From Desulfobaccales bacterium (GTDB taxonomy: Bacteria; Desulfobacterota; Desulfobaccia; Desulfobaccales; 0-14-0-80-60-11), in assembly GCA_037481655.1 (NCBI GenBank), contig JBBFLF010000011.1:1-64000 (forward strand): a stretch of 64,000 bases of DNA, in the 5' to 3' direction. Below are positions 39,926-54,080 of the stretch, in pieces; position 1 is the stretch's first letter; the number at the start of each line of letters is the position of its first letter. The position numbers and the translations under genes were made by a program. The notes beneath the pieces are model-generated. The model saw nothing but the letters and a program-made list of their open reading frames with translations, had not been told where the DNA came from and did not search any database.

Positions 39926-40059
39926 CCTGAGGGGAGGGCCGGGGGAGTAGTGGCTCCCCCGCCCTCCCCTCAGGCTCCCCTCCCCACCCCCTATATGGGG
40001 TTGGGGGAGAGGGCATGGGAGAGGGGGCAGGGGTCTGCGACCCCTGGCCCCCTCTCCCA
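39926..40059. repeat. G-rich palindromic element, copy 9 (order C-B-A)
   Basis: A full copy in the inverted orientation: C at 39926-39974 (CCTGAGGGGAGGGC to GCCCTCCCCTCAGG), B at 39975-40014 (CCCCCTATATGGGGTTGGGG), A at 40016-40059 (TGGGAGAGGGGGCAGGGG to CCCCCTCTCCCA). It lies between the convergent HAD and YHS genes, ending 15 bp before the YHS stop, the same setting as copy 2. Confidence 0.9.
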
Positions 40060-40074
40060 TTACCTAACCGCTGA

Positions 40075-40260
40075 CTATTGGCCGGACTTGGTCTTGGCGG
40101 CGTATTTTTCGGGTTGGGCGGCGAATTCCGCTTTGCAGGCTTCGGAGCAGAAGTAATAGGTCTGCTCCTCGAAGTCGTAGGTGAATTTGCCGTGGCCGGC
40201 CTCCAAATCGATATTGCACACCGGGTCCACGTGGCAGACGGGCTTTTCTTCCTTGGCCAT
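40075..40260 (-). CDS. YHS-domain protein
   Basis: A 61-residue protein consisting of one YHS domain: CHVDPVCNIDL, then TYDFEEQTYYFCSEACKAEFAAQPEKYA. The cysteines resemble metal-binding positions in TRASH/YHS modules found with metal transporters and reductases. I start at ATG 40260 (MAKEEKPVC); six more codons upstream are open but unlikely. It is isolated between the repeat and the hopanoid cluster, so its partner is unknown. Confidence 0.85.
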   Translation of the reverse strand: MAKEEKPVCHVDPVCNIDLEAGHGKFTYDFEEQTYYFCSEACKAEFAAQPEKYAAKTKSGQ

Positions 40261-40314: not shown

Positions 40315-41199
40315 TCAAGCCGGGAGGCCCGGGTCTGCTCCCGCCACTTGCCGGAAATCCGTCAGTTTTACTCCATGGATTTTCAGAGCCTCCCGCACCC
40401 GGGGGCTGAGGAGGGCTGCCAGTTCCTCCCGGCGCCGGTAGGTGGGGGTTAAGCGGGTCAGTTCCGCCTCCTCATACAGGGCCGGGTGGCCATAGATTTC
40501 GGTCACCCCGGGTTTGAGGCGAGGGATGAGGGCCAGGAGATGTTCTTCGGTCATGCGGCCGTCGTTGGTGAGGCCGAAGAGGTGGTCGTTGTATTTCAGG
40601 CCGGCGGCCAAAAGCAGCCGCTCAGCCCGGCGGCTGAGCCAGCGGAAGATCAGGCCCTGGGCCAGCTTGGGGAGAGGGCCATCCGGGGCCAGGGCCAGGG
40701 TGGTGAGCACCTCCTCCCGGGCCAGGCGCAGGGCCGGGATGCCGTACTCCCGGGCCAGCCCGATCACCAGGGGGAGCAGCCGGGGGTGGAGGTGCAGGTT
40801 GAGGTGGCCATTGAGGAACCACACTGTGAGCCCGGCCCGGAGCACGGCCTCGATCTGGGCGGCAAGCTCGGCCCGGATCTGGGGCAGCAGGCCCGGCCGG
40901 AAAAAGTAGCGCCAGCCGGTGGCCACGGGGTTGACGGGGAAATGGCCCCCCTGATCCACCAGATCCGGGATGAGACGGGGCGGCAGCACGGCCCGGCCCT
41001 GAATGAGGGTGAGGTGCACCCCCAGGCAGAGCTCGGGAAGCTCCCGGGCCAGGGCCAGGGCGTGGCCCGCGGCCGGGGCCCCGGGCATCAGGCTGGCTGA
41101 GGTGAGCACCCCCTGCCGGTGGGCCAGGGCCACGGCGGCATTCAGGGCCGGGGAGAGGCCGAAGTCATCGGCGGTAAAAATAATTAGTCTCAAGTCCAA
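40315..41199 (-). CDS. hpnK: HpnK/ChbG-type hopanoid-associated deacetylase
   Basis: A YdjC/ChbG-fold deacetylase of about 294 residues with IIFTADDFGLSPALNAAV, LGVHLTLIQG, and NGHLNLHLHPRL providing the metal-binding Asp and His residues, plus TEIYGHPA. HpnK removes the acetyl group from N-acetylglucosaminyl-bacteriohopanetetrol on the way to the composite head group. The start is uncertain: the only candidates are TTG codons at 41217, 41199 or 41193, all inside the heptamer repeat and without a Shine-Dalgarno sequence. Family N-termini (about MxxLIxTADDFG) favour 41199 or 41193. Confidence 0.85.
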   Translation of the reverse strand: MDLRLIIFTADDFGLSPALNAAVALAHRQGVLTSASLMPGAPAAGHALALARELPELCLGVHLTLIQGRAVLPPRLIPDLVDQGGHFPVNPVATGWRYFFRPGLLPQIRAELAAQIEAVLRAGLTVWFLNGHLNLHLHPRLLPLVIGLAREYGIPALRLAREEVLTTLALAPDGPLPKLAQGLIFRWLSRRAERLLLAAGLKYNDHLFGLTNDGRMTEEHLLALIPRLKPGVTEIYGHPALYEEAELTRLTPTYRRREELAALLSPRVREALKIHGVKLTDFRQVAGADPGLPA

Positions 41200-41546
41200 A
41201 TTTAGTCCAAAGTCCAAGGTCCAAGGTCCAAAGTCAAAAGTTTAAAAATTTAGTTCAAAGTTCAAGGTTCAAAGTTCAAAGTCAAAAAATTGCATATAGA
41301 AGATAATTTTGTTGAGGTGTTTGATAATCTGTAATATCAGTTATATTTTTATATTTTTGACTATGATAATTAGTTCCTTTTGGTATATTAACTATTAAAC
41401 TTAAAAATTGGAAAATGGACTTTGGGCTATAAACTATAAACATTGAATTATAAACTTTGAACTATAAACCATGAACCATGAACTATGGACCTTGGACCTT
41501 GGACCTTGGACTTTGGGCTATTGACTTTGGACTTTGGACTATTGCT
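41191..41546. repeat. AT-rich inverted element built of 7-bp tandem units
   Basis: Left arm 41191-41291 consists of degenerate heptamers of the type AGTCCAA/GGTCCAA, then GTTCAAA; the right arm 41396-41546 runs GAACTAT, ATGAACC, ATGGACC, TTGGACC, TTGGACT in 7-bp steps, i.e. the reverse complement of the left arm. The 104-bp centre is AT-rich with no gene. It contrasts sharply with the GC-rich flanks and fills the gap between two genes of one operon. It is not a CRISPR: units are contiguous without spacers. Confidence 0.9.
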
Positions 41547-42612
41547 TAAGCCACGAGCGGCTCTCCCATAGGGTCGCCAGAGAGCGGAAAGTGGCTTGGC
41601 TGAAGAGCCGCCCCAGCCCTTCCCGAAACCGGGCCTGCCGAAGAGCCGCCCAGCCTTCTGCCAGGGAGACGGCGGCCGTCTGGCAGGCGCTGGCGTCCAG
41701 GTAGCACTCGCTCACGCATCCCGGACAGGCCTGCTGGCGGGGCGAAGCGACGGGAAAGTCCTCCAATACCCCCAGGCGCTCCCCCAGGAGGTGGCACGGG
41801 TAAAGAGTCAGCTCCCAGTCGAGATAGAAATACTTGTCCCCGGCCAGACACGGAAGTTTAGGTGGATTGCCCCTCAGGCCGCGGCAGAGCTCCTCCAGGA
41901 CCCAGCGGGTGTTGAGCAGGGGCAGCGGACTTTTGGCCTTCAGGGCCAGCAGGGTCTGGAAGAGGGTTTGCAATTCCTCCAGCGAAAACTGGACCAGCGG
42001 GTCCGGCGCATAGCCCAGATAGGAAGACTCCAGCCGGGTGAGGGGATACGAAAACGTGACGGCCACAAAACCCAGGTGACGCAGGCAGCCCATCAGTCTT
42101 TGGAGGTTCCCCGTCAGCCGGGAGAGGGTCACTGAGGCGGTGGGCCTGAGCCCCTCCCGAGCGGCCAGCGGTACCAACTCCCGGAGGTGCCGGCTCAGGC
42201 CCGGCACCCCCCGATGCCGGTCGTGCACCTCGGGCTCAGCGGCGTCCAGAGAAATGAGAAGACGACCCAGGCCCGCCTGCTTGAGGCGATGGAGCAGGAC
42301 AGGGCTGAGAAGCGTCCCGTTGGTCACCAATAGGGTGTAAAACCCCAGGCGCCGGGCCTCATCCACCAGCTCCAGGAGAGCCGGATAGAGCAGGGGCTCG
42401 CCGCCGGTGAGGCTGAGGTAGCGGATGCCCCCGGCCTGGAGGCGTGCCAGCCCCGGTACGAGGCGGGCCGGATCGGCAAAGACCCGGTCTTCCGCGGGCA
42501 CGGAGGGAAAGCGGCAGAAACGGCAACGGGCGTTGCAGGCATTGGTGAGGGCGATCTGACAGAGACCGGGGCCGCCTGTCGCCAGCAGCCGGAGAAAGTC
42601 ACGCAGGTTCAT
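41539..42612 (-). CDS. Radical SAM protein in the hopanoid cluster
   Basis: A 357-residue radical SAM enzyme: the cluster motif CNARCRFC (CxxxCxxC) lies near residue 26, with LSLTGGEPLLYP and LLISLDAAEPEVHDRHRG following. A C-terminal cysteine set (CLAGDKYFYLD, YPCHLLG, CPGCVSECYLDASAC) suggests a SPASM-like auxiliary iron-sulfur cluster. It is not HpnH-like in its C-terminus, and I do not recognise a defined subfamily. It overlaps the upstream hpnJ by 14 bp; a GTG at 42633 is an alternative start. Its last codons and TAG stop are made of heptamer-repeat sequence. Confidence 0.8.
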   Translation of the reverse strand: MNLRDFLRLLATGGPGLCQIALTNACNARCRFCRFPSVPAEDRVFADPARLVPGLARLQAGGIRYLSLTGGEPLLYPALLELVDEARRLGFYTLLVTNGTLLSPVLLHRLKQAGLGRLLISLDAAEPEVHDRHRGVPGLSRHLRELVPLAAREGLRPTASVTLSRLTGNLQRLMGCLRHLGFVAVTFSYPLTRLESSYLGYAPDPLVQFSLEELQTLFQTLLALKAKSPLPLLNTRWVLEELCRGLRGNPPKLPCLAGDKYFYLDWELTLYPCHLLGERLGVLEDFPVASPRQQACPGCVSECYLDASACQTAAVSLAEGWAALRQARFREGLGRLFSQATFRSLATLWESRSWLKQ

Positions 42613-44047
42613 GCCGGCAAGCGGCCGCCTCACCCTGACGCCGCTTGAAATAGAAGGAGAGAAATTGTCGCCCCTCCTTGAGCAGCCGGCGGCGCTCCGC
42701 CGGATCCCTGACCATGGTGGCCAGGGCCCGGGCCATGTAGCGGGGCCGGAAGTAGAAGCGGCGATAAAAGGTGTTCACCGCCTGGAAGATCTCCGCCGCC
42801 GCCAGACCGGGGTAATCCACGGCGCACTGCTGATAGCCGGTGCCGCCGTCCACCAGGGCCTCGCCCTTGAGGTAGCCGTGCTCCCGGCACCAGTCGTAAA
42901 ATTCCGTCCCGGGGTAGGGGGTGGCCAGGGACACCTGGATGGTATCCGGGTCCAGCTCGCAGGCGAAGCGCATGGAGGCCTCCAGGGTCTCCCGGGTCTC
43001 CCCGGGCAGGCCCACCATGAAGGTGCCGTGCACCTGGATCCCCAGCTCCCGGCACCAGCGCACCAGGCGGCGGCCCAGCTCGAGGGTGGCCCCTTTTTTG
43101 ATATTCTTCAGAACTTGCTCATCCCCGCTCTCAAAGCCCACCACCAAAAGCCTCAGGCCACCCTCCCGCATGGCCTTCAGGGTCTCATAATCCGTGTTCA
43201 CCCGGCCGGTGGTGGACCAAATGAAGTTCAGGGGCCGGAAGGCCCGTCCCAGCTCCCGGGCCCGGTGGGCGTCGGCGGTAAAGGTGTCGTCGTCGAAGAA
43301 GATCTCCGCCGCCTCCGGGAAGAGCTCCAGGGCCCGGCGCACCTCCGCCACCACATTGGCCACGCTGCGGACCCGGTAGCGGCGGCCGGTGAAGGTCTGG
43401 GGCCACAGGCAGTAAACGCAACGGTGCGGACAGCCCCGGCCGGTGTAAATGGAGATGTACGGGTGCTTGAGATAAGGGATGTGGTAGCGCCGGAAGTCCA
43501 GGTCCCGCTTGTAGATCTCGGTGACAAAGGGCAGGGCGTCCAGGTCCTCGATGAAAGGCCGGTCGGGGTTATGCACAATGCGGCCGTTCTCCCGATAGCT
43601 TAAGCCCAAGATTTCCCGGAAGGGCCGGCCCTGGGCCACCTCCAGGATGGTGTAGTCGAATTCCCGCCGGGCCACAAAATCCAGCTGCGGTCCCGCCTCC
43701 AGGGACTCCTGGGCCAAGATGCTGACGTGCGGGCCCACCATGCCCACCGTGAGGCGGGAATTGGCCTCCTTCAGGCGGGCCGCGGTCCTCAGGTCATAGT
43801 GGAAGGAGGGGCTGGTGGTGAAAAGCACCGCCAACTCAAAGTCCGAAGCCAGGGCCGCCACCTGGTCCACCGTCAGATTTTCCGGCGGCGCGTCCACCAC
43901 CCGGCTGTTCGGAATAAGGCCGGCAGGGTAACAGAGCCAGGTGGGATACCAGAAAGAGACCACCTCCCGGGTGGCCTGGTAGCGGGAGCCGGCCCCGCCG
44001 TCGAAATCCTGGAAGGACGGCGGGTTGAGAAGCAGTGTGCGCAGCAT
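42599..44047 (-). CDS. hpnJ: HpnJ, hopanoid-associated B12-binding radical SAM protein
   Basis: A 482-residue protein with an N-terminal cobalamin-binding-like domain (LRTLLLNPPSFQDFDGGAGSR) and a radical SAM domain with CPHRCVYC (GRGCPHRCVYCLWPQ). The DGGAGSRYQATREV and SFWYPTWL stretches are very close to HpnJ, which contracts the amino sugar of glucosaminyl-bacteriohopanetetrol to the cyclitol ether. ATG 44047 (MLRTLL) has AAGG upstream; an upstream in-frame start adds nine residues. It leads the cluster hpnJ-radical SAM-hpnK; the glycosyltransferase hpnI and squalene-hopene cyclase are not here. Confidence 0.9.
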   Translation of the reverse strand: MLRTLLLNPPSFQDFDGGAGSRYQATREVVSFWYPTWLCYPAGLIPNSRVVDAPPENLTVDQVAALASDFELAVLFTTSPSFHYDLRTAARLKEANSRLTVGMVGPHVSILAQESLEAGPQLDFVARREFDYTILEVAQGRPFREILGLSYRENGRIVHNPDRPFIEDLDALPFVTEIYKRDLDFRRYHIPYLKHPYISIYTGRGCPHRCVYCLWPQTFTGRRYRVRSVANVVAEVRRALELFPEAAEIFFDDDTFTADAHRARELGRAFRPLNFIWSTTGRVNTDYETLKAMREGGLRLLVVGFESGDEQVLKNIKKGATLELGRRLVRWCRELGIQVHGTFMVGLPGETRETLEASMRFACELDPDTIQVSLATPYPGTEFYDWCREHGYLKGEALVDGGTGYQQCAVDYPGLAAAEIFQAVNTFYRRFYFRPRYMARALATMVRDPAERRRLLKEGRQFLSFYFKRRQGEAAACRHEPA

Positions 44048-45784: not shown

Positions 45785-47248
45785 TTAAGTCCCTTTCCCG
45801 GATAAAACGATTTTTATAGTTTTAAAAATAATCAAAATATCTAATAGTAACCCCATGTTTTTTATGTAATACAAGTCGTATTGCAATTTTTCGTTAGTTT
45901 CCTCAATGGAAGATGTATAATTATGCATCACCTGTGCCCAGCCAGTGAGGCCGGGTTTGACCAGGAAACGAAAACTGTAAAAAGGGATTTTTTCCCTCAA
46001 GCCGATGCAGATTTGGGTGTCCGGAGGATCATTCAGGCGGCGGCCCGGGCGGTAATCAGGGACAAGATGTTGATATTCCTGACAAAATATTTGACGCTCG
46101 GGCCGCGGCCCGATAAAACTCATATCGCCTTTAATGATATTGATGAGCTGGGGTAACTCATCTAGACGGAGTTTGCGGAGGATTCGGCCGACTCGGGTGA
46201 TGCGCGGATCGTCAGCGGTGGAAAATTGTGGGCCGTTTTCTTCAGCATTTTCCACCATCGTTCTAAATTTAATGATTTTGAAGGGACGCTTGTTTTTCCC
46301 CAATCTTTCCTGCAGATAAAAAACCTTCCCTTTGCTATTTATTTTAATGGCCAGAGCGATAAATAAAAACAAGGGCAAAAGGGCCAGGAGACAAAAAGCG
46401 GCAACAAATGGTTCGAGAATGCTTTTGAAGCGTACATAATAATGTTTGTTAAAATTTAAATTCCATTGATAAAACCAATAACTGGAGATATGGGAGTTGG
46501 GCACCTTTCCAGTGATAGCTTCAAAAATGCTGGGCATGTCCAGGAGGGTCACCTTTTGCCAGCAAGCCTGGACCAACCGGTTCACGAGGGGCGGCTGCTT
46601 GTCATGAGTAATGGCCACCACCACCAAGGAGACCTGCTCTTTATCAATGATGGAGTTCAAGTCGGCGGAGGTGCCTAAGACCGGCAGGCCGCCCACTTCG
46701 GCCCCCACTTTGGCCGGATCATCGTCGATATACCCCACGGGCCACAGGCCGCAGCGGGGGTGTTCCCGGATAATCTCCAGGAGGCGGCGGCCGGCCCCCC
46801 CAGCCCCGACGATGAGGGTGCGCTTGAAGAATTTGGGGGTGAACAGCAGCGCGGAGAAAAGATAGCGCCAGGCGAGGATCAATACCAGGAAGGTGGCGGC
46901 CTGCACCAGGAAGAGTTTGTGGCTGAAAGGGGTCATTCGCAGAAGGTGGCTGGCCAAGAAGGCCACCATTGACCCTACGATAACGGCCAGGCCGATTTTC
47001 AAAAAATTGGTGATCTCGCAGTAATCCTGCTGATAGTCATAGGCATCGGCAATATATAGAGTCGAAAAAATGATGATGCCGTTGGCCAAAGATCTGAGGT
47101 CCATAACCGCACAACCAGAAGGGCAAAATCCGAGGAATACTTGATCTGCCCATGCACAGAGTAGCAGAGAGGCGACAAAGGAGAGAAAATCGCCGAAGAA
47201 CAGGGCGATTTTCCATTTTATTAGGGGGATACCAAAAAAGGAGGCCAT
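45785..47248 (-). CDS. Second polyprenyl-phosphate sugar-1-phosphate transferase
   Basis: A 487-residue relative of the preceding transferase with N-terminal spans, a nucleotide-fold segment (TLIVGAGGAGRRLLEII) and the catalytic domain (FYLQERLGKNKRPFKIIKFRTM, LDELPQLINIIKGDMSFIGPRPER, PGLTGWAQVMHNY). The loop with RPGRRLNDPPDTQICIGLREKIPFY is an insertion relative to WcaJ. Codon use is noticeably more AT-rich than in its WcaJ neighbour, pointing to separate origins. ATG 47248 is preferred over a GTG at 47272. Confidence 0.88.
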   Translation of the reverse strand: MASFFGIPLIKWKIALFFGDFLSFVASLLLCAWADQVFLGFCPSGCAVMDLRSLANGIIIFSTLYIADAYDYQQDYCEITNFLKIGLAVIVGSMVAFLASHLLRMTPFSHKLFLVQAATFLVLILAWRYLFSALLFTPKFFKRTLIVGAGGAGRRLLEIIREHPRCGLWPVGYIDDDPAKVGAEVGGLPVLGTSADLNSIIDKEQVSLVVVAITHDKQPPLVNRLVQACWQKVTLLDMPSIFEAITGKVPNSHISSYWFYQWNLNFNKHYYVRFKSILEPFVAAFCLLALLPLFLFIALAIKINSKGKVFYLQERLGKNKRPFKIIKFRTMVENAEENGPQFSTADDPRITRVGRILRKLRLDELPQLINIIKGDMSFIGPRPERQIFCQEYQHLVPDYRPGRRLNDPPDTQICIGLREKIPFYSFRFLVKPGLTGWAQVMHNYTSSIEETNEKLQYDLYYIKNMGLLLDILIIFKTIKIVLSGKGT

Positions 47249-47268
47249 GATTTCCCAACAAACTGCAA

Positions 47269-48489
47269 TCACTTAATATGAAGAATTTCCTTAACTTTAT
47301 CCTTCACCATCTCGTCAGTAATATCAAGCATGCATTTCTGATAAGTGAGATTTATACAATGAGGTCTGATACCACGATGACTATAAGTGCAAGGAGAGCA
47401 CGGTTGCTCTATATATAAGTAATGGTTGCCAGGCCCGAAAGGACCATAACGCCCAGGGGTTTCCGGACCGAAGAGACCGAGGGTCGGAACGCGCAACGCA
47501 GCTCCTAAATGCATCGGGCCAGTGTCGTTGGCCACCATCAGCTTGGCTTCATCCAATAAAGCAACATAATCAGCAAAGGAAAGCTCATCCATTAAAGAAA
47601 ATATGGGAGCTCCATCGGCATGTGAAAGGATAAAATTAATAATATCTTTTTCCGAGTTGGTGCCGGATAAAAAGACGACGTAGTCATTTTGGGCAAGAAA
47701 TTGGGCCAAAGTGAGGAAGCGTTCCTTCGGCCAGGCCCGGCATCGACCGGAAGGGCCGCACCCAGGGTGGAGCACCACATACGGCCGGCCTTCGAGGCCC
47801 TTTGCCTGGAGCCACCGCTGGATGTTATGGCGATTTTCCGGGCGAAGGCGCGGGGCCACCAGCCTGTGCGGCGGCGGAGGCAGGGGCAGAATCGATTGGG
47901 CCAGGCCATAAAAATCGTGGAGGATATGATGCTGGGGGGAGAGACGCCAGGCATTGGTCAACAGCAGCCGGCGCGCCCCTAGATAGTAAAAGCCGCCGCG
48001 GACCGGAATGTTAGACAAATAAAGAATGACCGGGGTGAAATAAAAATGTGGTTCAAAATCAATCGCAAGGTCATACTGGGATTTTCTTAAATTTTTGATT
48101 ATCTTAATGAGCCTTAGAAAACCAAGTTTAGATTTCAAAATATCCTCGACAATCAAACGATCATAGAGATGAGAATTTTGCTCCAGGATCTGGGAGTTGA
48201 GCGGAGTGGCCAATACATGAATTTCGGCCTGCGGACATGCCTTTTTTATTCTGTCGATAACAGTCAATAATATGGTTGACTCTCCTAAGGCAGCTAATTT
48301 GACCAGCAATATTTTATTAAATCGATGATTGCAAGTAACATTTTGAGTTCTCCCAAACGTTTTCCCGAAAATATAGAGGAAAAAAGTGATTAAAAGGCCA
48401 AAGTAGGCATCAATTATGCGGAATAATTGCCTCTTCAAGGGTTCGTTGCGGGTTGCAACTCTTTCTTTATGTCGGTTTATCAGAGTCAT
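47269..48489 (-). CDS. Glycosyltransferase family 9 (heptosyltransferase-like)
   Basis: A 406-residue protein with GT9 features: ILLVKLAALGESTILL near residue 60, the acceptor-side KIIKNLRKSQYDLAIDFEPH, and the ADP-heptose-type C-terminal half with VVLHPGCGPSGRCRAWPKERF, ELSFADYVALLDEAKLMVANDTGPMHLGAAL and TLGLFGPETPGRYGP. The cysteine-rich C-terminus PCSPCTYSHRGIRPHC is seen in part of the family. An N-terminal hydrophobic segment (about 27-46) may anchor it to the membrane. The gene is AT-rich compared with the flanks. Confidence 0.88.
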   Translation of the reverse strand: MTLINRHKERVATRNEPLKRQLFRIIDAYFGLLITFFLYIFGKTFGRTQNVTCNHRFNKILLVKLAALGESTILLTVIDRIKKACPQAEIHVLATPLNSQILEQNSHLYDRLIVEDILKSKLGFLRLIKIIKNLRKSQYDLAIDFEPHFYFTPVILYLSNIPVRGGFYYLGARRLLLTNAWRLSPQHHILHDFYGLAQSILPLPPPPHRLVAPRLRPENRHNIQRWLQAKGLEGRPYVVLHPGCGPSGRCRAWPKERFLTLAQFLAQNDYVVFLSGTNSEKDIINFILSHADGAPIFSLMDELSFADYVALLDEAKLMVANDTGPMHLGAALRVPTLGLFGPETPGRYGPFGPGNHYLYIEQPCSPCTYSHRGIRPHCINLTYQKCMLDITDEMVKDKVKEILHIK

Positions 48490-48886
48490 AGTAGATCAAG
48501 ATGACTTGAACAAATTTGAGGTGCGTAATGAAGCCGCAGGGGAAATAAAACCGAGAACACACCTCTGGGGCCGCTGAGGAGTAACCCTCACGAGAAGCCG
48601 TTCAATCTAGAGTGAAATTACAACAGTTTCGCCTGAGGTTGGCAGGTGGAGTTCACCACCGGAGCACTGCCCCCTTTTTATCATTAGCAATTTCTGTTCC
48701 CAGTCAAATTCTATGCCGGTCTCTTAACCTGAAAAGGAGGAGAGCCGGGTTCTATATGGAAACACCAGGAGAAATGTTCATAAAATGAAACATGAATGTT
48801 TCAAAAGAGGAGCAAATGGGCTCCAGGCACCGGCATGGTTCCCGGGAGTCCGGGCTGGAAGGGCGTTTCAGTAGGGCGACAAAGCC
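48490..48886. other. Intergenic gap inside the polysaccharide locus
   Basis: 397 bp with no gene I can support. Near 48775-48810 there is an imperfect inverted repeat around GAAACATGAATGTTTC. The stretch may be the remnant of a lost gene, as the rest of the locus is tightly packed. Confidence 0.4.
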
Positions 48887-49888
48887 TCACCGTAACGACA
48901 AACCGGAATAAAGTTCGATATGCCGGGAGGCAATCGCGGCCCAGGAGATTTTCTCCAAATATTTCCGGGCTTCTCGTCTTAAGCGGGTAAAGCGCTCGCT
49001 TGGCTCGGAGAAGGACTCCAGGATCTGCAGCGCCTCTGCCGGATGATGGGCAAAGAGGAGGAATTTTTCAAATTCCGGAGGCATCTGAGGCCCCCGGGTG
49101 GTGATCACGAGCACTCCGTTCCCCAAGGCCGCCAGGAGGGAGCCCCGCCGTTCTGAGGCCCCGTCAGGGTAGGGAAGATAAGCGAAGGTCGCCCGGCTTA
49201 AGATTTCCGCTACTTGTTGAGGTCCGAGGGACAAGTGGAGACTCACATATGGCAGGGCCCGGATCCGGTCCAGGAATCGGGGATAATGGGGATGAGGGAA
49301 ACCAAGGAGGCGGAATTTCCAAATGCTCTCCCGTTCCCACGCCATCCGGGCCAGAGCCAGGAATTCCTCAATTCCTTTGCCTGGTTTGATGATACCAAAA
49401 TAGATCACTTCGGGATTTTTCTCGCCTGGGCTTGCGGTAAAGGGGATGTTACTGCCAATGGGTATGATATCTGACCGACGCCTGACCCAGGGGGTCCATC
49501 GACATAATGAGTCTCGCTCCCCCTCATTGGTAAAAATAAAATAGCTTCGAAGGGTAAAGGGGATAATGGAAAGTCGGCGAAGAATATGTGCCTGGGAGAA
49601 TTCATGTAAAGTGACGACAATATTTGTCGATTGTAAAATGAGTGAAATGATTTGTGGAATAATGCTTTTCCCATAACCGATTGTCGGGTATTGAATATGG
49701 AGGATGTTCGAGTTTTGTTGGCGGAGAATGGAAATTAATGAGGGTAAAGAAGAGAGCCGCCAATCCCTGTGGTGCAGGACTGAAACGTTTACCTTTGCCT
49801 TTTTAAGAGCTGTTATCAGCTGATAGGTATAATCACCCACACCGCAATGGTCGGGTGGGTAGGAGCCGGTTAACATGACAATTTTCAT
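48887..49888 (-). CDS. GT4-type glycosyltransferase
   Basis: A 333-residue GT-B glycosyltransferase. The N-terminus MLTGSYPPDHCGVGDYTYQLITAL is characteristic of family 4 donors/acceptors, and the C-terminal domain has VIYFGIIKPGKGIEEFLALAR and the region LSRATFAYLPYPDGASERRGSLLAALGNGVLVITT, which aligns with the E-x7-E donor-binding motif, here with the first Glu as SERRGSL. It overlaps the polymerase gene by 4 bp. The sugar is unknown. Confidence 0.82.
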   Translation of the reverse strand: MKIVMLTGSYPPDHCGVGDYTYQLITALKKAKVNVSVLHHRDWRLSSLPSLISILRQQNSNILHIQYPTIGYGKSIIPQIISLILQSTNIVVTLHEFSQAHILRRLSIIPFTLRSYFIFTNEGERDSLCRWTPWVRRRSDIIPIGSNIPFTASPGEKNPEVIYFGIIKPGKGIEEFLALARMAWERESIWKFRLLGFPHPHYPRFLDRIRALPYVSLHLSLGPQQVAEILSRATFAYLPYPDGASERRGSLLAALGNGVLVITTRGPQMPPEFEKFLLFAHHPAEALQILESFSEPSERFTRLRREARKYLEKISWAAIASRHIELYSGLSLR

Positions 49889-51297
49889 TTTTCAAGAAGC
49901 TTTTGATAAAGAAGGTCATAATATTTTTGATAGAGGAGACTAGTGGCCCCGATGAAGGAGCCGATGATAAACCAGAGATGATTGAGCACAAAAGTGAATC
50001 CGGTGAGAGTCTCCAAAGAGAGCACCATCAGAAAAGAGACGAAATATCCTGAAAGGAATATTTTATCTTTTTCTAGTGTATGAGGGGGAAAGATCCTGAT
50101 GATTCGGAGGAATCTCCAGCAAAGATAGAAAATAAAAAGAGAGAAGGCACCGAATCCCAGGATGCCGGTGTGAGCCAACAATTTGACAATAAGGTCGTGA
50201 GAAACGGAACTTCCCCATCCGATTCCCAGGATAGGATACTGGAGGAAATATTGAAAAGAATCAATAATGGAGCTCATTCGTTCAATTCCAGAATACGATT
50301 CCTGTTTTTGGATAACATTTGTAATAAAATATTCGAGAAAAAATGGAAAATATAGAAAAGATAGGAATAATAATATGATGGGAGTGAGTATAACTATTAA
50401 AACACGTATTTTGACTATTTCCAATAAAAATAATGTAACCAGGGAGAACATGACCAAAAGAAATAGTCCAATAAAAGAAGTGGTAGAGGCTCCCAAAATA
50501 ATTACAGAAACTATAAACAGGAAACATATGGGGTCCAGCTTGGGCGAAAAGATATATTTTTGCGAGAATATTGAAAAAACTAAAAAAGGGGCGATGCTCA
50601 GCATGAATTTGGAAAAATATGAAGCCTCCAGACACACGGAGGTGATCCGCTTGAGCTCGGCTAAAGAATAGGTTTCCTCCATATAACCGGCAGCCGCAGG
50701 GTGGATGGAATTGTTGAAAATGAAGTCGGGATACGGAAGGTTGAACCAATAGAGCAACCATTGCATAAGTCCCCATAAACCGACAAAAATTCCCGAAACG
50801 ATATAGACCAGAAGACTTTTTTTCAATAGTTCTTCCACAGAATTAAACACGGCAAAAAAAACTGTAAGAAAAACGCCGTGTAATAAATATAGATATAATG
50901 TAATGTGCCGGAGGGAAAGGTTCAAGGGAATCATAACAGGATACAGCAGACTCCATTCGGGACCATGGACTAAGAGCCTACCAGAAATAATGACCGGCAT
51001 CGATAAAGATAATAAAACTATAAAAGCAAATAAAAATAACAGGGAAAAGGAATATCCAGTATGGCGGGGAAGGGGCAATTTTCTCATTAAAAAGCGGCCA
51101 ATTTCCCGGGAGACAAACAGGGATCCCAACCACAAACTGACCTGAATGCCAGAGCCAGAAAAAGCATCTCTATAAATATTAATGACTGCAGTGGCCGAAA
51201 AAGGTAAAAAGAAAATCAAAATGTAATAAATGCTTCTAGTAAAAAGAAGCATGAAGCTCAGCGGAATGATGATGGCGCCAATATAAGTAATTTCCAT
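49885..51297 (-). CDS. Wzy-like polysaccharide polymerase/O-antigen ligase family protein
   Basis: A 470-residue, extremely hydrophobic protein with roughly ten membrane spans and one larger periplasmic loop (about 195-235, YPDFIFNNSIHPAAAGYMEETYSLAEL). ILGIGWGSSVSHDLIVKLLAHTGILG near the C-terminus matches the conserved glycine/histidine loop of Wzy/WaaL-type O-antigen polymerases and ligases. It lies between glycosyltransferase genes, where the polymerase of a Wzx/Wzy locus is expected. Base composition is the most AT-rich of the window's genes, typical for wzy. Confidence 0.8.
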   Translation of the reverse strand: MEITYIGAIIIPLSFMLLFTRSIYYILIFFLPFSATAVINIYRDAFSGSGIQVSLWLGSLFVSREIGRFLMRKLPLPRHTGYSFSLLFLFAFIVLLSLSMPVIISGRLLVHGPEWSLLYPVMIPLNLSLRHITLYLYLLHGVFLTVFFAVFNSVEELLKKSLLVYIVSGIFVGLWGLMQWLLYWFNLPYPDFIFNNSIHPAAAGYMEETYSLAELKRITSVCLEASYFSKFMLSIAPFLVFSIFSQKYIFSPKLDPICFLFIVSVIILGASTTSFIGLFLLVMFSLVTLFLLEIVKIRVLIVILTPIILLFLSFLYFPFFLEYFITNVIQKQESYSGIERMSSIIDSFQYFLQYPILGIGWGSSVSHDLIVKLLAHTGILGFGAFSLFIFYLCWRFLRIIRIFPPHTLEKDKIFLSGYFVSFLMVLSLETLTGFTFVLNHLWFIIGSFIGATSLLYQKYYDLLYQKLLEK

Positions 51298-51303
51298 ATA
51301 TCT

Positions 51304-52374
51304 TTATTTTCTGATAGGAATGAAGAAGCTGATCAGAAAAGAACGAAATATCCAATAAACTCGATCGAACTGTTTACGATAAATGCGATTAAACAGTTTT
51401 CCTAACAATTTGATACTCAATATCAGGGGAAATAATTTACTATATTTGCGAAAGAAGATCACACAAGAAGAGATTTCATAGCAGTCTGCCTGCAGACTGG
51501 GTCCCTGGGTGCTGGCCCCCTCCTTATGATACACTTTACTTTCTTCAGCATAAAGCAGGCGATACCCCGCCAGCGTTATTCGATAACCAAGATCGACGTC
51601 CTCCCAGAAATGAAAAAAAGCTGGGTCAAAAAGACCGACATCCCTTAATGTCTCCAAGGGTATCAGGCAGCTGCACCCCTCAATATAATCCAGCTTATTA
51701 GACTCAGGGGGGAGCGGGGCCCCGGGAGCATTTCTTACTAAGGGAGAGACACCCCCCAAAGCCCACCGGATCCGTTTGCCGCCCCAGGAAAGAATCTTCT
51801 CGGGGTAAAAGTAATCAAGAATCTTGGACCCTACTGCTCCGACGCGGGAAGTTGAAGCCGCCTTGGCCCAAAGGGAGCGGAGTGCGTCCGGCGCCACCAC
51901 CGTGTCGTTGTTCAGCAGCCAGACGTGGCCGGCATCTCCCCTAGCCAGGGCGTAACGCAGCCCCACATTATTGCCGCCTCCGAAGCCCAGATTGGCCCCG
52001 GTCTGGATGAAGACCAGCGGCACGGCCGGGTCGGGGTCAACACCACCGGCCTCCGCCGTCGGTCGATCATAACACACAAAAGGGATGGGTTTGGCCAGGG
52101 GGCGGCGGAAGAGGTGCGCCAGGGCCGGGTTCTGGGGGCCGGGAAAGGGAAGCTCCCCCCGGGCCCACGCCAACATCTTCTCCCATGAGCCGTCCTGAGA
52201 GCCATTGTCGCAGACCACCGCCACGAAAGGATGGTAGTCCTGCCGAAACAGGCTCTCCAGGCATTCGATGGTATGGGCCCAGCCGTTCCAATTGACCAGG
52301 AGCACGTACACTCGGGAACTCTCCGGCGGTGATTGACCGGCCGTCTCTCTCCGAGGGCCGATGCTTGCTATCAT
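51304..52374 (-). CDS. Glycosyltransferase family 2
   Basis: A 356-residue GT-A enzyme of the rhamnosyl-type GT2 branch: VYVLLVNWNGWAHTIECLESLFRQ, VAVVCDNGSQDGSW, GGGNNVGLRYAL and VWLLNNDTVVAPDAL with the metal-binding aspartate in NND, then FDPAFFHFWEDVDLGYR, the acceptor-side ED motif. The C-terminal 60 residues are basic and hydrophobic and may associate with the membrane. It starts 8 bp after the GT39-like gene. Confidence 0.9.
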   Translation of the reverse strand: MIASIGPRRETAGQSPPESSRVYVLLVNWNGWAHTIECLESLFRQDYHPFVAVVCDNGSQDGSWEKMLAWARGELPFPGPQNPALAHLFRRPLAKPIPFVCYDRPTAEAGGVDPDPAVPLVFIQTGANLGFGGGNNVGLRYALARGDAGHVWLLNNDTVVAPDALRSLWAKAASTSRVGAVGSKILDYFYPEKILSWGGKRIRWALGGVSPLVRNAPGAPLPPESNKLDYIEGCSCLIPLETLRDVGLFDPAFFHFWEDVDLGYRITLAGYRLLYAEESKVYHKEGASTQGPSLQADCYEISSCVIFFRKYSKLFPLILSIKLLGKLFNRIYRKQFDRVYWIFRSFLISFFIPIRK

Positions 52375-52382
52375 CGCTCCTG

Positions 52383-54080
52383 TTAGCGCAACCGGATGGT
52401 GATGGTTTTACCGATACTGGGCATGGGAAGCTCCAGATCCAGGTCCAGGGGCACGGACGTGGCCTTTCGGTATTCATAGAGGAGCAGCTCCCCCTGTTGC
52501 CGGGAGGGATCACCCCCATGATCCAGTTGGAAGACGATGGGGAACTTCTTCACCAGGACAAAGTCAGGGTCGGTGAGCATCATGGTGCGTAGGGTGGAAA
52601 GCGCCGGCAATTTCTCCCAGTCAGCCACTGGCATGAAATGGATGCAGATGTAACGGATGCCATACTTACGGAAAAATTCCTTGATCTCCTCGTCTTTGGT
52701 TCTGATCTCCCAGAGGGCGTAATGGGGAAAAATGGCAATGGCATAAAGGAATTTGTTACTTCGGAAGAGATAGAGCCGCCGGTCAGGGTCGGCTTTCCGG
52801 GTGGCGAAAACCAAGGCCCCATAGGCGGAATAATCGCCGTCAAAAAACACGATTTCCTCGCGGTCCGGCGGAATCTGGGACAGGAGGAAACGGGCCACCT
52901 CCTCATTACCGGAGACCCGGGAGCGGGGGGTGAAGGCGGCCTCCGTCAGGGTGGCGGCAGAGAAGACCGCCACCAGTCCCACCAGGACAAGGGTCCCGCG
53001 AGCGGTGCGGGAAGAGAGCTGGGCAGCCAGCCGAAGCACAGGGAGAGCAGCCAATCCACAGAGCGACGGGACCCAATAGATGATATAGCGCGGCTCCTTG
53101 CTGCCCAGGACGGTGAACAGGAGATAACAGGAGGCGGCCCAGAGGAGGAGAAAGATCTCCTGCCCCCGCACCGGGCGGCCAAGGGGGGTGATAAGACTCA
53201 GCAGGTAAAAGACCAATAGCACAATGGTGGTCCAGGATAATTGTTCGGGGAGTGTAACAAGATAATATAAATAGATATGAATGGAAAGATAATGTTGGAA
53301 TCCTTTAAAGGAATCTTTAAAAATAACGTCACTATGAAAGAAAAAGCTGGCGATATAGTAAGGAGCACTGAGGATAATCACAATGGCTACGAAAATAATC
53401 AGGTGCCGCCAGGCGAAAAACACTCTCTTTTCCTGACCATACTTATAGAGAGAAAATAAGAAAAAGAATACCAACAGGTAAAGGGAGGTTTGCTTTGTGA
53501 GTAGCGCCAGGCCGGTAAATATGGCCGTCAGGATGACGTCCAGGAGCCTGGCCTCCCGCACATATACATAAAAATAGTAGGTGGCGATAAGGGAGAGGGA
53601 GACCGAAGGGATCTCCAGGCTGACGGTGCGCGCCATAAACAACATGATCGGACTGGTCACCAAGAGGATGGAGGCCAGTACTGCGGTCAAGTCATCAAAC
53701 ATCACCCGAAGGAGCCGGTAAAAATAGGTCAATCCGAGGAGAAAAAAGAAGTAGCTCACCAACCGCGCCACCGGCTCGCTGATCCCGAAAATCAGAAAAA
53801 AAGTCCCTTCCACTAGATGGAACAGATGTGGCCAGTGTAATAAAGCAATATTGTTATAATGGGCATAATAATTCCAGATATAGTCCATCATATTCTTGGG
53901 ATTGTTTAGGAATGCACCGTCCCGGATAAAGTCCGCAAAAAACACCCCGATCATGGTATGGGCATAAGTGTCTGCAATGCCACCCAGTTCGCCGTCGTTG
54001 ATGGTCCACAGAACCAAAAGCGAAGCGATGCCCACCACGAGCAAGTAGGAGGTGGAGAAAAAGGTCTTTTTATGGGTCAT
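52383..54080 (-). CDS. GT39/ArnT-like membrane glycosyltransferase
   Basis: A 565-residue protein with about a dozen spans followed by a C-terminal periplasmic domain of roughly 170 residues. The first loop has acidic residues in INDGELGGIADTYAHT, comparable to the conserved Asp/Glu of the PMT/ArnT superfamily, and the loop GSKEPRYIIYWVPSLCGLAALP is typical of ArnT-like enzymes. These use polyprenyl-phosphate sugars outside the cytoplasm. ATG 54080 has AAGGA at 8 bp; a TTG at 54125 is unlikely. It may decorate the polysaccharide or its lipid-linked unit. Confidence 0.78.
   Translation of the reverse strand: MTHKKTFFSTSYLLVVGIASLLVLWTINDGELGGIADTYAHTMIGVFFADFIRDGAFLNNPKNMMDYIWNYYAHYNNIALLHWPHLFHLVEGTFFLIFGISEPVARLVSYFFFLLGLTYFYRLLRVMFDDLTAVLASILLVTSPIMLFMARTVSLEIPSVSLSLIATYYFYVYVREARLLDVILTAIFTGLALLTKQTSLYLLVFFFLFSLYKYGQEKRVFFAWRHLIIFVAIVIILSAPYYIASFFFHSDVIFKDSFKGFQHYLSIHIYLYYLVTLPEQLSWTTIVLLVFYLLSLITPLGRPVRGQEIFLLLWAASCYLLFTVLGSKEPRYIIYWVPSLCGLAALPVLRLAAQLSSRTARGTLVLVGLVAVFSAATLTEAAFTPRSRVSGNEEVARFLLSQIPPDREEIVFFDGDYSAYGALVFATRKADPDRRLYLFRSNKFLYAIAIFPHYALWEIRTKDEEIKEFFRKYGIRYICIHFMPVADWEKLPALSTLRTMMLTDPDFVLVKKFPIVFQLDHGGDPSRQQGELLLYEYRKATSVPLDLDLELPMPSIGKTITIRLR

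Follow-up and report, generated by a model that had tools for sequence, protein, structure and literature searches.

A heptamer-armed intergenic island in a Desulfobaccales genome as a probable non-autonomous copy of a mobile element linked to S23-type four-helix-bundle genes

An AT-rich island between two genes of a Desulfobaccales operon is probably a gene-less, non-autonomous copy from a class of small mobile elements that a cognate four-helix-bundle (FHB) protein serves in trans. Elements of this family have inverted arms made of tandem 7-bp units, or 8-bp units in some clades, and a subset of them hold a single gene of the IVP/S23 FHB type between the arms. Unit sequences are FHB lineage-specific, and genomes hold further FHB-less copies built from the unit of their own FHB. 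Orthologous sites differ in whether an element occupies them, and one insertion into a plasmid carries a 5-bp target duplication. We infer a direct role for the FHB protein in this mobility.

Structure of the island and its place in the operon

The window analyzed here is a stretch of 64,000 nucleotides, positions 1 to 64,000 of contig JBBFLF010000011.1 (C11 among the 50 contigs of a 2.87-Mb genome, G000, called the own genome below). The island occupies positions 41187 to 41541, between the stop codon of a radical-SAM gene (41539 to 42633, minus strand), which lies upstream of it in the operon and was placed by synteny, and the start codon of a downstream ChbG/YdjC (HpnK)-like gene (40315 to 41193, minus strand), named from its TADDFG motif and syntenic in 23 relatives. 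Its GC content is 30%, against 63% for the whole window, as the original prediction had it in calling the composition unlike the surroundings. The same prediction described two inverted arms of degenerate heptamers around an AT-rich centre, and self-matching at lag 7 bears this out: values reach 0.69 in the left arm and 0.72 in the right, compared with shuffle means of 0.31 and 0.26 and shuffle maxima of 0.49 and 0.42. TRF reported 7-bp arrays in both arms along with a 41-bp higher-order repeat, and every one of the 21 matches in the window to a 21-bp three-unit pattern fell inside the island, against 0.14 expected.

The limits of this FHB-less element were set where the units stop and were compared with the same gap in two genomes of the same genus, G002 and G001. 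Earlier coordinates of 41191 to 41546 were right to a few bases, but the arrays extend from about 41187 to 41541. The left arm (41187 to 41287, plus strand) consists of AGTCCAA and then AGTTCAA units, with sub-blocks at 41203 to 41239 and 41251 to 41286. The right arm (41417 to 41541, plus strand) is its inverted copy, in which inner TATAAAC/TATGAAC units drift to outer TTGGACC/TTGGACT units. Between them, the AT-rich centre (41288 to 41416) measures roughly 130 bp, not 104 bp as first described, and the open reading frame list contains no ORF there. The 7-bp phase had also been called strict; it is broken by GTCAAAAATTTAG-type spacers between sub-blocks. The arms are complementary up to 90 to 94%, and one strand folds as RNA into a hairpin of -120 kcal/mol (z = -10.9). 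No Rfam family matched the island, and weak Rfam miRNA matches at 40002 to 40078 were rejected as chance hits to GC hairpins.

The last unit of the right arm ends within the stop codon of the radical-SAM gene (CTA/TAG, 41539 to 41541, minus strand), which is formed jointly with this outermost unit and is identical in G002. At the opposite end, a TTG at 41193 to 41191 (minus strand), inside the terminal unit of the left arm, is the likely start of the ChbG/HpnK-like gene, judging from the alignment of its LIIFTADDFG beginning with relatives.

Elsewhere in the GC-rich window, positions 47177 to 53932 contain more AT-rich stretches, free of heptamers and next to sugar-transferase-like genes, and may represent a horizontally acquired surface-polysaccharide region.

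Other copies in the genome and the same site in relatives

A search of the own genome for further TTGGACC-type islands, as proposed with the original prediction, found about 17 more built from the window island's unit when pattern matches and BLAST were used for counting, with 97 exact matches to the three-unit pattern. Several have the full plan, in which the left arm is always AGTCCAA, the middle is AT-rich, and the right arm is always TTGGACT. The centre of the window island showed no similarity to four other islands or to the interior of the FHB element of the same genome, so that an origin of FHB-less islands by internal deletion is not demonstrable. For three of the four islands compared, the orthologous sites in both G001 and G002 contain only short heptamer-free spacers, while the fourth island is common to G002 and absent from G001.

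The gap between the radical-SAM and ChbG/HpnK-like genes is likewise variable in relatives and holds no conserved coding or RNA gene, the outcome that had been named as refuting the original prediction. It spans 31 to 66 bp and is array-free in the sister family; within the own family it ranges from 8 to 1196 bp, and about half of the genomes have 7-bp arrays in it. G001 has an array-free gap and G002 a decayed relict, and because of that decay, neither a target duplication nor the exact empty site of the window copy can be read. The arrays at this junction in the own family (L043 to L068, orthologues of window positions 40315 to 42633) use at least five different heptamer units, which means that the 7-bp period is general and the unit sequence is not. 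This may mark the junction as a hot spot for insertion, or it may reflect how many such elements these genomes carry.

Tandem copies of a longer unit were also seen in the own genome, where a segment of contig C37 (L041, 6263 to 7331) repeats a unit of about 215 bp with GTTCAAA/TTTGAAC arms four to five times.

Heptamer arrays flank FHB genes across bacteria

One island of the own genome, C3:15911-16695, shares the AGTYCAA unit with the window island and encloses the only PF05635 gene of that genome (C3:16209-16523, TIGR02436 E = 6e-34), which is the sole gene between its arms. PF05635/TIGR02436 is the four-helix-bundle family labelled "23S rRNA IVP/S23". Within the order, 26 of 29 genomes have PF05635 genes, flanked by 7-bp arrays that each have their own unit, and searching the contigs of GTDB genomes with an alignment of these proteins brought up 80 loci in very diverse bacteria.

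The association was quantified at 110 FHB loci from 14 phyla, taking for the 350-bp upstream flank the lag at which it best matched itself; 193 windows placed 1 kb beyond, on those same contigs, served as controls. The best lag was 7 in 86 upstream flanks and 8 in a further 11 (97/110); downstream, it was 7 in 69 and 8 in 11 (80/108). Among the controls, lag 7 was best in 26 and lag 8 in 8 (34/193), and both sides of FHB genes differed from them (Mann-Whitney p = 2e-34 upstream and 1e-25 downstream). At a threshold of 0.65, both arms were detected at only 53 of 107 loci, and neither at 12. Where both arms could be read, they resembled each other as inverted copies (similarity of 0.83) rather than directly (0.43), and they did not resemble the arms of other loci (0.41). 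On the coding strand, the upstream arm tends to be G-rich, with G exceeding C in 82 of 107 units and AG or GG occurring in 97. No rRNA and no other Rfam family was found at eight FHB loci, and no FHB relative was found in phage records. The association between FHB genes and arrays is general across bacteria, and the recurrence of the same kind of ends around these genes suggests that FHB moves or serves heptamer-armed elements.

One genome, G024, has 20 PF05635 matches and tandem 215-bp units that combine fragments of FHB genes with AGGACTG-type heptamers; these lie about 20 kb apart at C1 3064500-3067000 and 3084000-3087200 (L242 and L243).

Published repeats provided a prediction. GGGAATC repeats of Xanthomonas were reported in 2015 as heptameric SSRs with 70 to 75 convergent inverted pairs, and the accessible part of that report states that GGGNATC repeats of Xanthomonas and Nostoc are "generally" unassociated with mobile elements (PMC4692102). 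If the Xanthomonas repeats are arms of an FHB element, then GGGAATC is expected on the flanks of FHB genes in such genomes. A perfect four-unit GGGAATC array was present in 1 of the 369 Gammaproteobacteria drawn (G416), and FHB genes were found in 20 of 59 genomes of its family. At least seven FHB loci in this family, that of G416 included, are flanked on one side or both by GGGAATC/GGGATTC-type arrays oriented as predicted, and most of the remaining loci have arrays of other units. The prediction was confirmed.

Unit sequence follows FHB lineage

Similarity between units falls with patristic distance between the FHB proteins, from 0.90 at distances below 0.3 to 0.71 at 0.3 to 0.6 and 0.38 above 1.6, a covariation that also holds between phyla; the overall correlation is weak (Mantel r = -0.18, p = 0.007). 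Within the own order, ten proteins that form a clade have NGTTTTC or a near variant throughout, the own clade uses AGTYCAA, and a mainly Bacteroidetes clade uses 8-bp units like AGGCACAA. On the FHB tree, the 7- or 8-bp state changes 8 times, compared with at least 10 changes in 1000 shuffles. Arrays of 8 bp flank FHB at L106, L115, L135, L146, L152, L160, L167, L171, L173, L174, and L177, and since they belong to particular clades, the period itself is clade-specific.

The same relationship appears in the distribution of arrays among genomes. The own unit has 97 matches in G000, 7 in G002, where the FHB protein is 91% identical, and 0 in G001, which lacks FHB. AGTAGYC has 83, 20, and 15 matches in G009, G012, and G017, all of which have the cognate FHB, and none in the sister family. 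A perfect AGTGGTT array occurs in only two of ten genomes searched, both with an FHB element bearing AGTGGTT, and the Thiohalocapsa genome has AGTGGTT at three places; the other eight have FHB elements with other units or imperfect AGTGGTT arrays. Exceptions exist. G018 and G025 have some matches to own-type units where no cognate FHB was found, and no PF05635 gene was found in G005, yet it has 28 matches to the reversed pattern that fit the NGTTTTC unit; for all three genomes, relics or missed genes must be assumed. Arrays are abundant in genomes with the cognate FHB and absent or rare in most others. If arms and gene are inherited together in one element, this covariation would arise even without direct recognition.

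Filled and empty sites on plasmids

Complete plasmids of Nostocales were used to compare filled and empty sites. An FHB element with AGAATTC/AGGAGTC units is present on plasmid C of Trichormus variabilis and on a Scytonema plasmid, and missing at that site from plasmids that are 97% identical. The empty sequence AAAAAGTAATTAACAAAT becomes AAAAAGTAAT-element-GTAATTAACAAAT, an insertion of 428 bp that comprises a 423-bp element and a 5-bp target duplication, GTAAT. A Nostoc plasmid has a decayed copy of an FHB element at the same spot. Filled and empty versions were found at two more sites, A and B, in two other plasmid families. The apparent TTCTA duplication at site B in Nostoc also fits the heptamer, and duplications at site A, nrdB/nrdA, and the cas operon are unreadable because the flanks have diverged or contain other inserts; the target duplication is unambiguous only on T. 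variabilis plasmid C.

Like the window island, several insertions lie at stop/start junctions within operons or tight gene pairs. One FHB element separates nrdB from nrdA. Another, with a very long AGGTGAC/AGGGAAC array, lies between cas6 and cas4 in the type I-D CRISPR operon of Anabaena sp. 90 plasmid pANA02 (L183, 2080 to 2960), and a near-identical CRISPR operon of Dolichospermum has a different, unrelated insert at this junction. Nesting also occurs, as on Nostoc plasmid pNPM1 (L203, 1300 to 1680), where a second heptamer-armed insert interrupts an FHB element. The mobility of the heptamer-armed class is well supported.

Discussion

We propose that FHB multimers, as pentameric four-helix bundles with the Avd fold, would recognize the 7-nt units in the hairpin that the arms form, either as RNA or as single-stranded DNA, and that by binding them a cognate FHB would mobilize FHB-bearing and FHB-less copies alike, as TnpA-REP does with REP sequences. 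The own FHB was modelled with AlphaFold (mean pLDDT 84), and the structures nearest to the model are the S23 proteins 2GSC and 2RLD, followed by the DGR Avd protein 4DWL (TM 0.85 by target length, rmsd 2.0) and also 8UB7. The FHB family has no known catalytic motif. The enzyme that cuts or copies the element could be FHB itself, a reverse transcriptase, or host replication and repair, and a reverse transcriptase partner for FHB is possible by analogy with Avd. A pentameric state has a precedent in S23p of X. campestris, a homopentamer according to the passage of PMC4990558 that cites Lin et al. (2006). Because the arm provides a stop or start codon, operons would tolerate insertion at their stop/start junctions. 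Unit number would then drift via slippage, inner units would decay, and unselected copies would decay from the inside.

Repeats of this kind are usually read, whether as STRR or as SSR heptamers, as arrays that grow by polymerase slippage in intergenic DNA with no mobility. In favour of this, copies differ in how many units they contain, the inner units have degenerated, and in many bacterial genomes no class of long SSR is commoner than heptanucleotides, as the introduction of PMC4679880 states. Slippage probably changes the number of units, but as a full explanation we consider it very unlikely: the unit tracks the FHB clade, islands are missing at orthologous sites, and the precise empty sites on plasmids already contradict it. 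The inverted arms that surround a single gene family in 14 phyla also speak against it, and slippage followed by inversion, one of two origins put forward in the original prediction, cannot account for them. The other, a mobile element with heptameric ends, is upheld by the roughly 17 further islands, the island-free sites in same-genus relatives, the clean empty sites, and the arms that flank FHB genes. Repeats are easily misassembled, and the own genome is a draft in 50 contigs; even so, the chance of an assembly or binning artefact is negligible when the same architecture is found in complete closed cyanobacterial plasmids and isolate genomes, and when islands lie within long contigs of conserved synteny.

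Two other accounts give FHB a different task. Movement could depend on reverse transcription or a foreign transposase, with FHB only an accessory, like Avd for the DGR reverse transcriptase. The match in fold to Avd in DGR ribonucleoprotein structures (4DWL and 8UB7) speaks for this alternative, which we hold to be rather unlikely; against it, FHB stands alone between the arms and the element contains no reverse transcriptase or transposase. The feature could also act at the level of RNA, where a hairpin cut by RNase III would make the element tolerable, FHB would be a transcript-binding protein for processing or regulation, and spread would be passive, through recombination or host copying. 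A strong hairpin, insertions inside operons, and the S23p/IVS precedent of RNase III excision and GACAGAT heptamers in Coxiella (PMC4990558) are what such an account expects, but neither target duplication nor the large number of dispersed copies is expected without some insertion activity, and we find it improbable. Our preferred reading remains a small mobile element on which the cognate FHB acts in trans.

Heptameric intergenic repeats have so far had no agreed origin. The link between FHB and heptamers gives both a testable role, would explain the 7-bp period by a protein and not by slippage, and points to a mechanism of insertion without a known transposase. With its pairs of unit and protein, the class already offers the material from which a recognition code could be read.

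Comparison with known systems

In a REPtron, a RAYT/TnpA-REP transposase gene is flanked by inverted REPs, and REPs are dispersed in the genome. The elements described here share with REPtrons one gene between inverted repeats and many gene-less copies elsewhere in the genome, but instead of a Y1 tyrosine transposase they encode a four-helix bundle, and arrays of 7-bp units take the place of the REP palindrome. Short, AT-rich, ORF-less, and intergenic with inverted ends, the window island also resembles MITEs; it differs in its tandem-heptamer ends, with which no transposase is known, and in its full-length counterpart, whose gene between such ends is FHB rather than a known transposase. The window island is a MITE only formally. 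Structure comparison gives FHB the same four-helix-bundle fold as DGR Avd, whereas the heptamer-armed element has no template or variable repeat and no reverse transcriptase.

STRR are the heptameric repeats of heterocystous cyanobacteria. The accessible parts of two other reports describe TAACTGA heptameric repeats in Beggiatoaceae (PMC4679880) and heptanucleotide elements in Geobacter metallireducens (PMC2700814). Known heptameric repeats and the arrays described here are alike in their tandem 7-bp units, their intergenic position, and their frequent placement immediately before or after ORFs. Here, however, the repeats are the arms of an FHB element, while in the accessible parts of PMC4692102, PMC4679880, and PMC2700814 they are unconnected with FHB or S23 genes. 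A literature search of open-access papers, with subscription papers and preprints outside its scope, found no published link between FHB and heptamers. Each part was known before, and the unification of S23p elements with heptameric repeats appears to be unreported.

The intervening sequences (IVS) of 23S rRNA in Coxiella, Leptospira, and others share with FHB-bearing elements a single PF05635 ORF, hairpin-forming inverted repeats, and a patchy distribution that suggests mobility, and the window island has long stem-forming inverted repeats as well. The Coxiella IVS encodes S23p, a member of the PF05635 family, and has three tandem GACAGAT heptamers before the ORF; S23/IVP FHB proteins are widespread in bacterial genomes, with function unknown (PMC4990558). 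Unlike IVS, the FHB elements studied here occupy ordinary intergenic and operon junctions outside rRNA, have long 7- or 8-bp arrays as arms on both sides, and are accompanied by many FHB-less copies. The window copy, which has no ORF and lies between two protein genes, is not a 23S IVS, whereas C3:15911-16695 does carry a PF05635 ORF. In its behaviour, the window copy resembles a non-autonomous partner to an element of the IVS/S23 type. A broader unification, on which we are evenly divided, would see in all of these a mobile element class of at least 14 phyla whose sole gene is FHB and whose ends are telomere-like arrays of a lineage-specific 7- or 8-nt unit read by that protein; many heptameric SSRs and STRRs would then be its arms, and the intervening sequences of rRNA would be a special case, namely those members that inserted into 23S rRNA.
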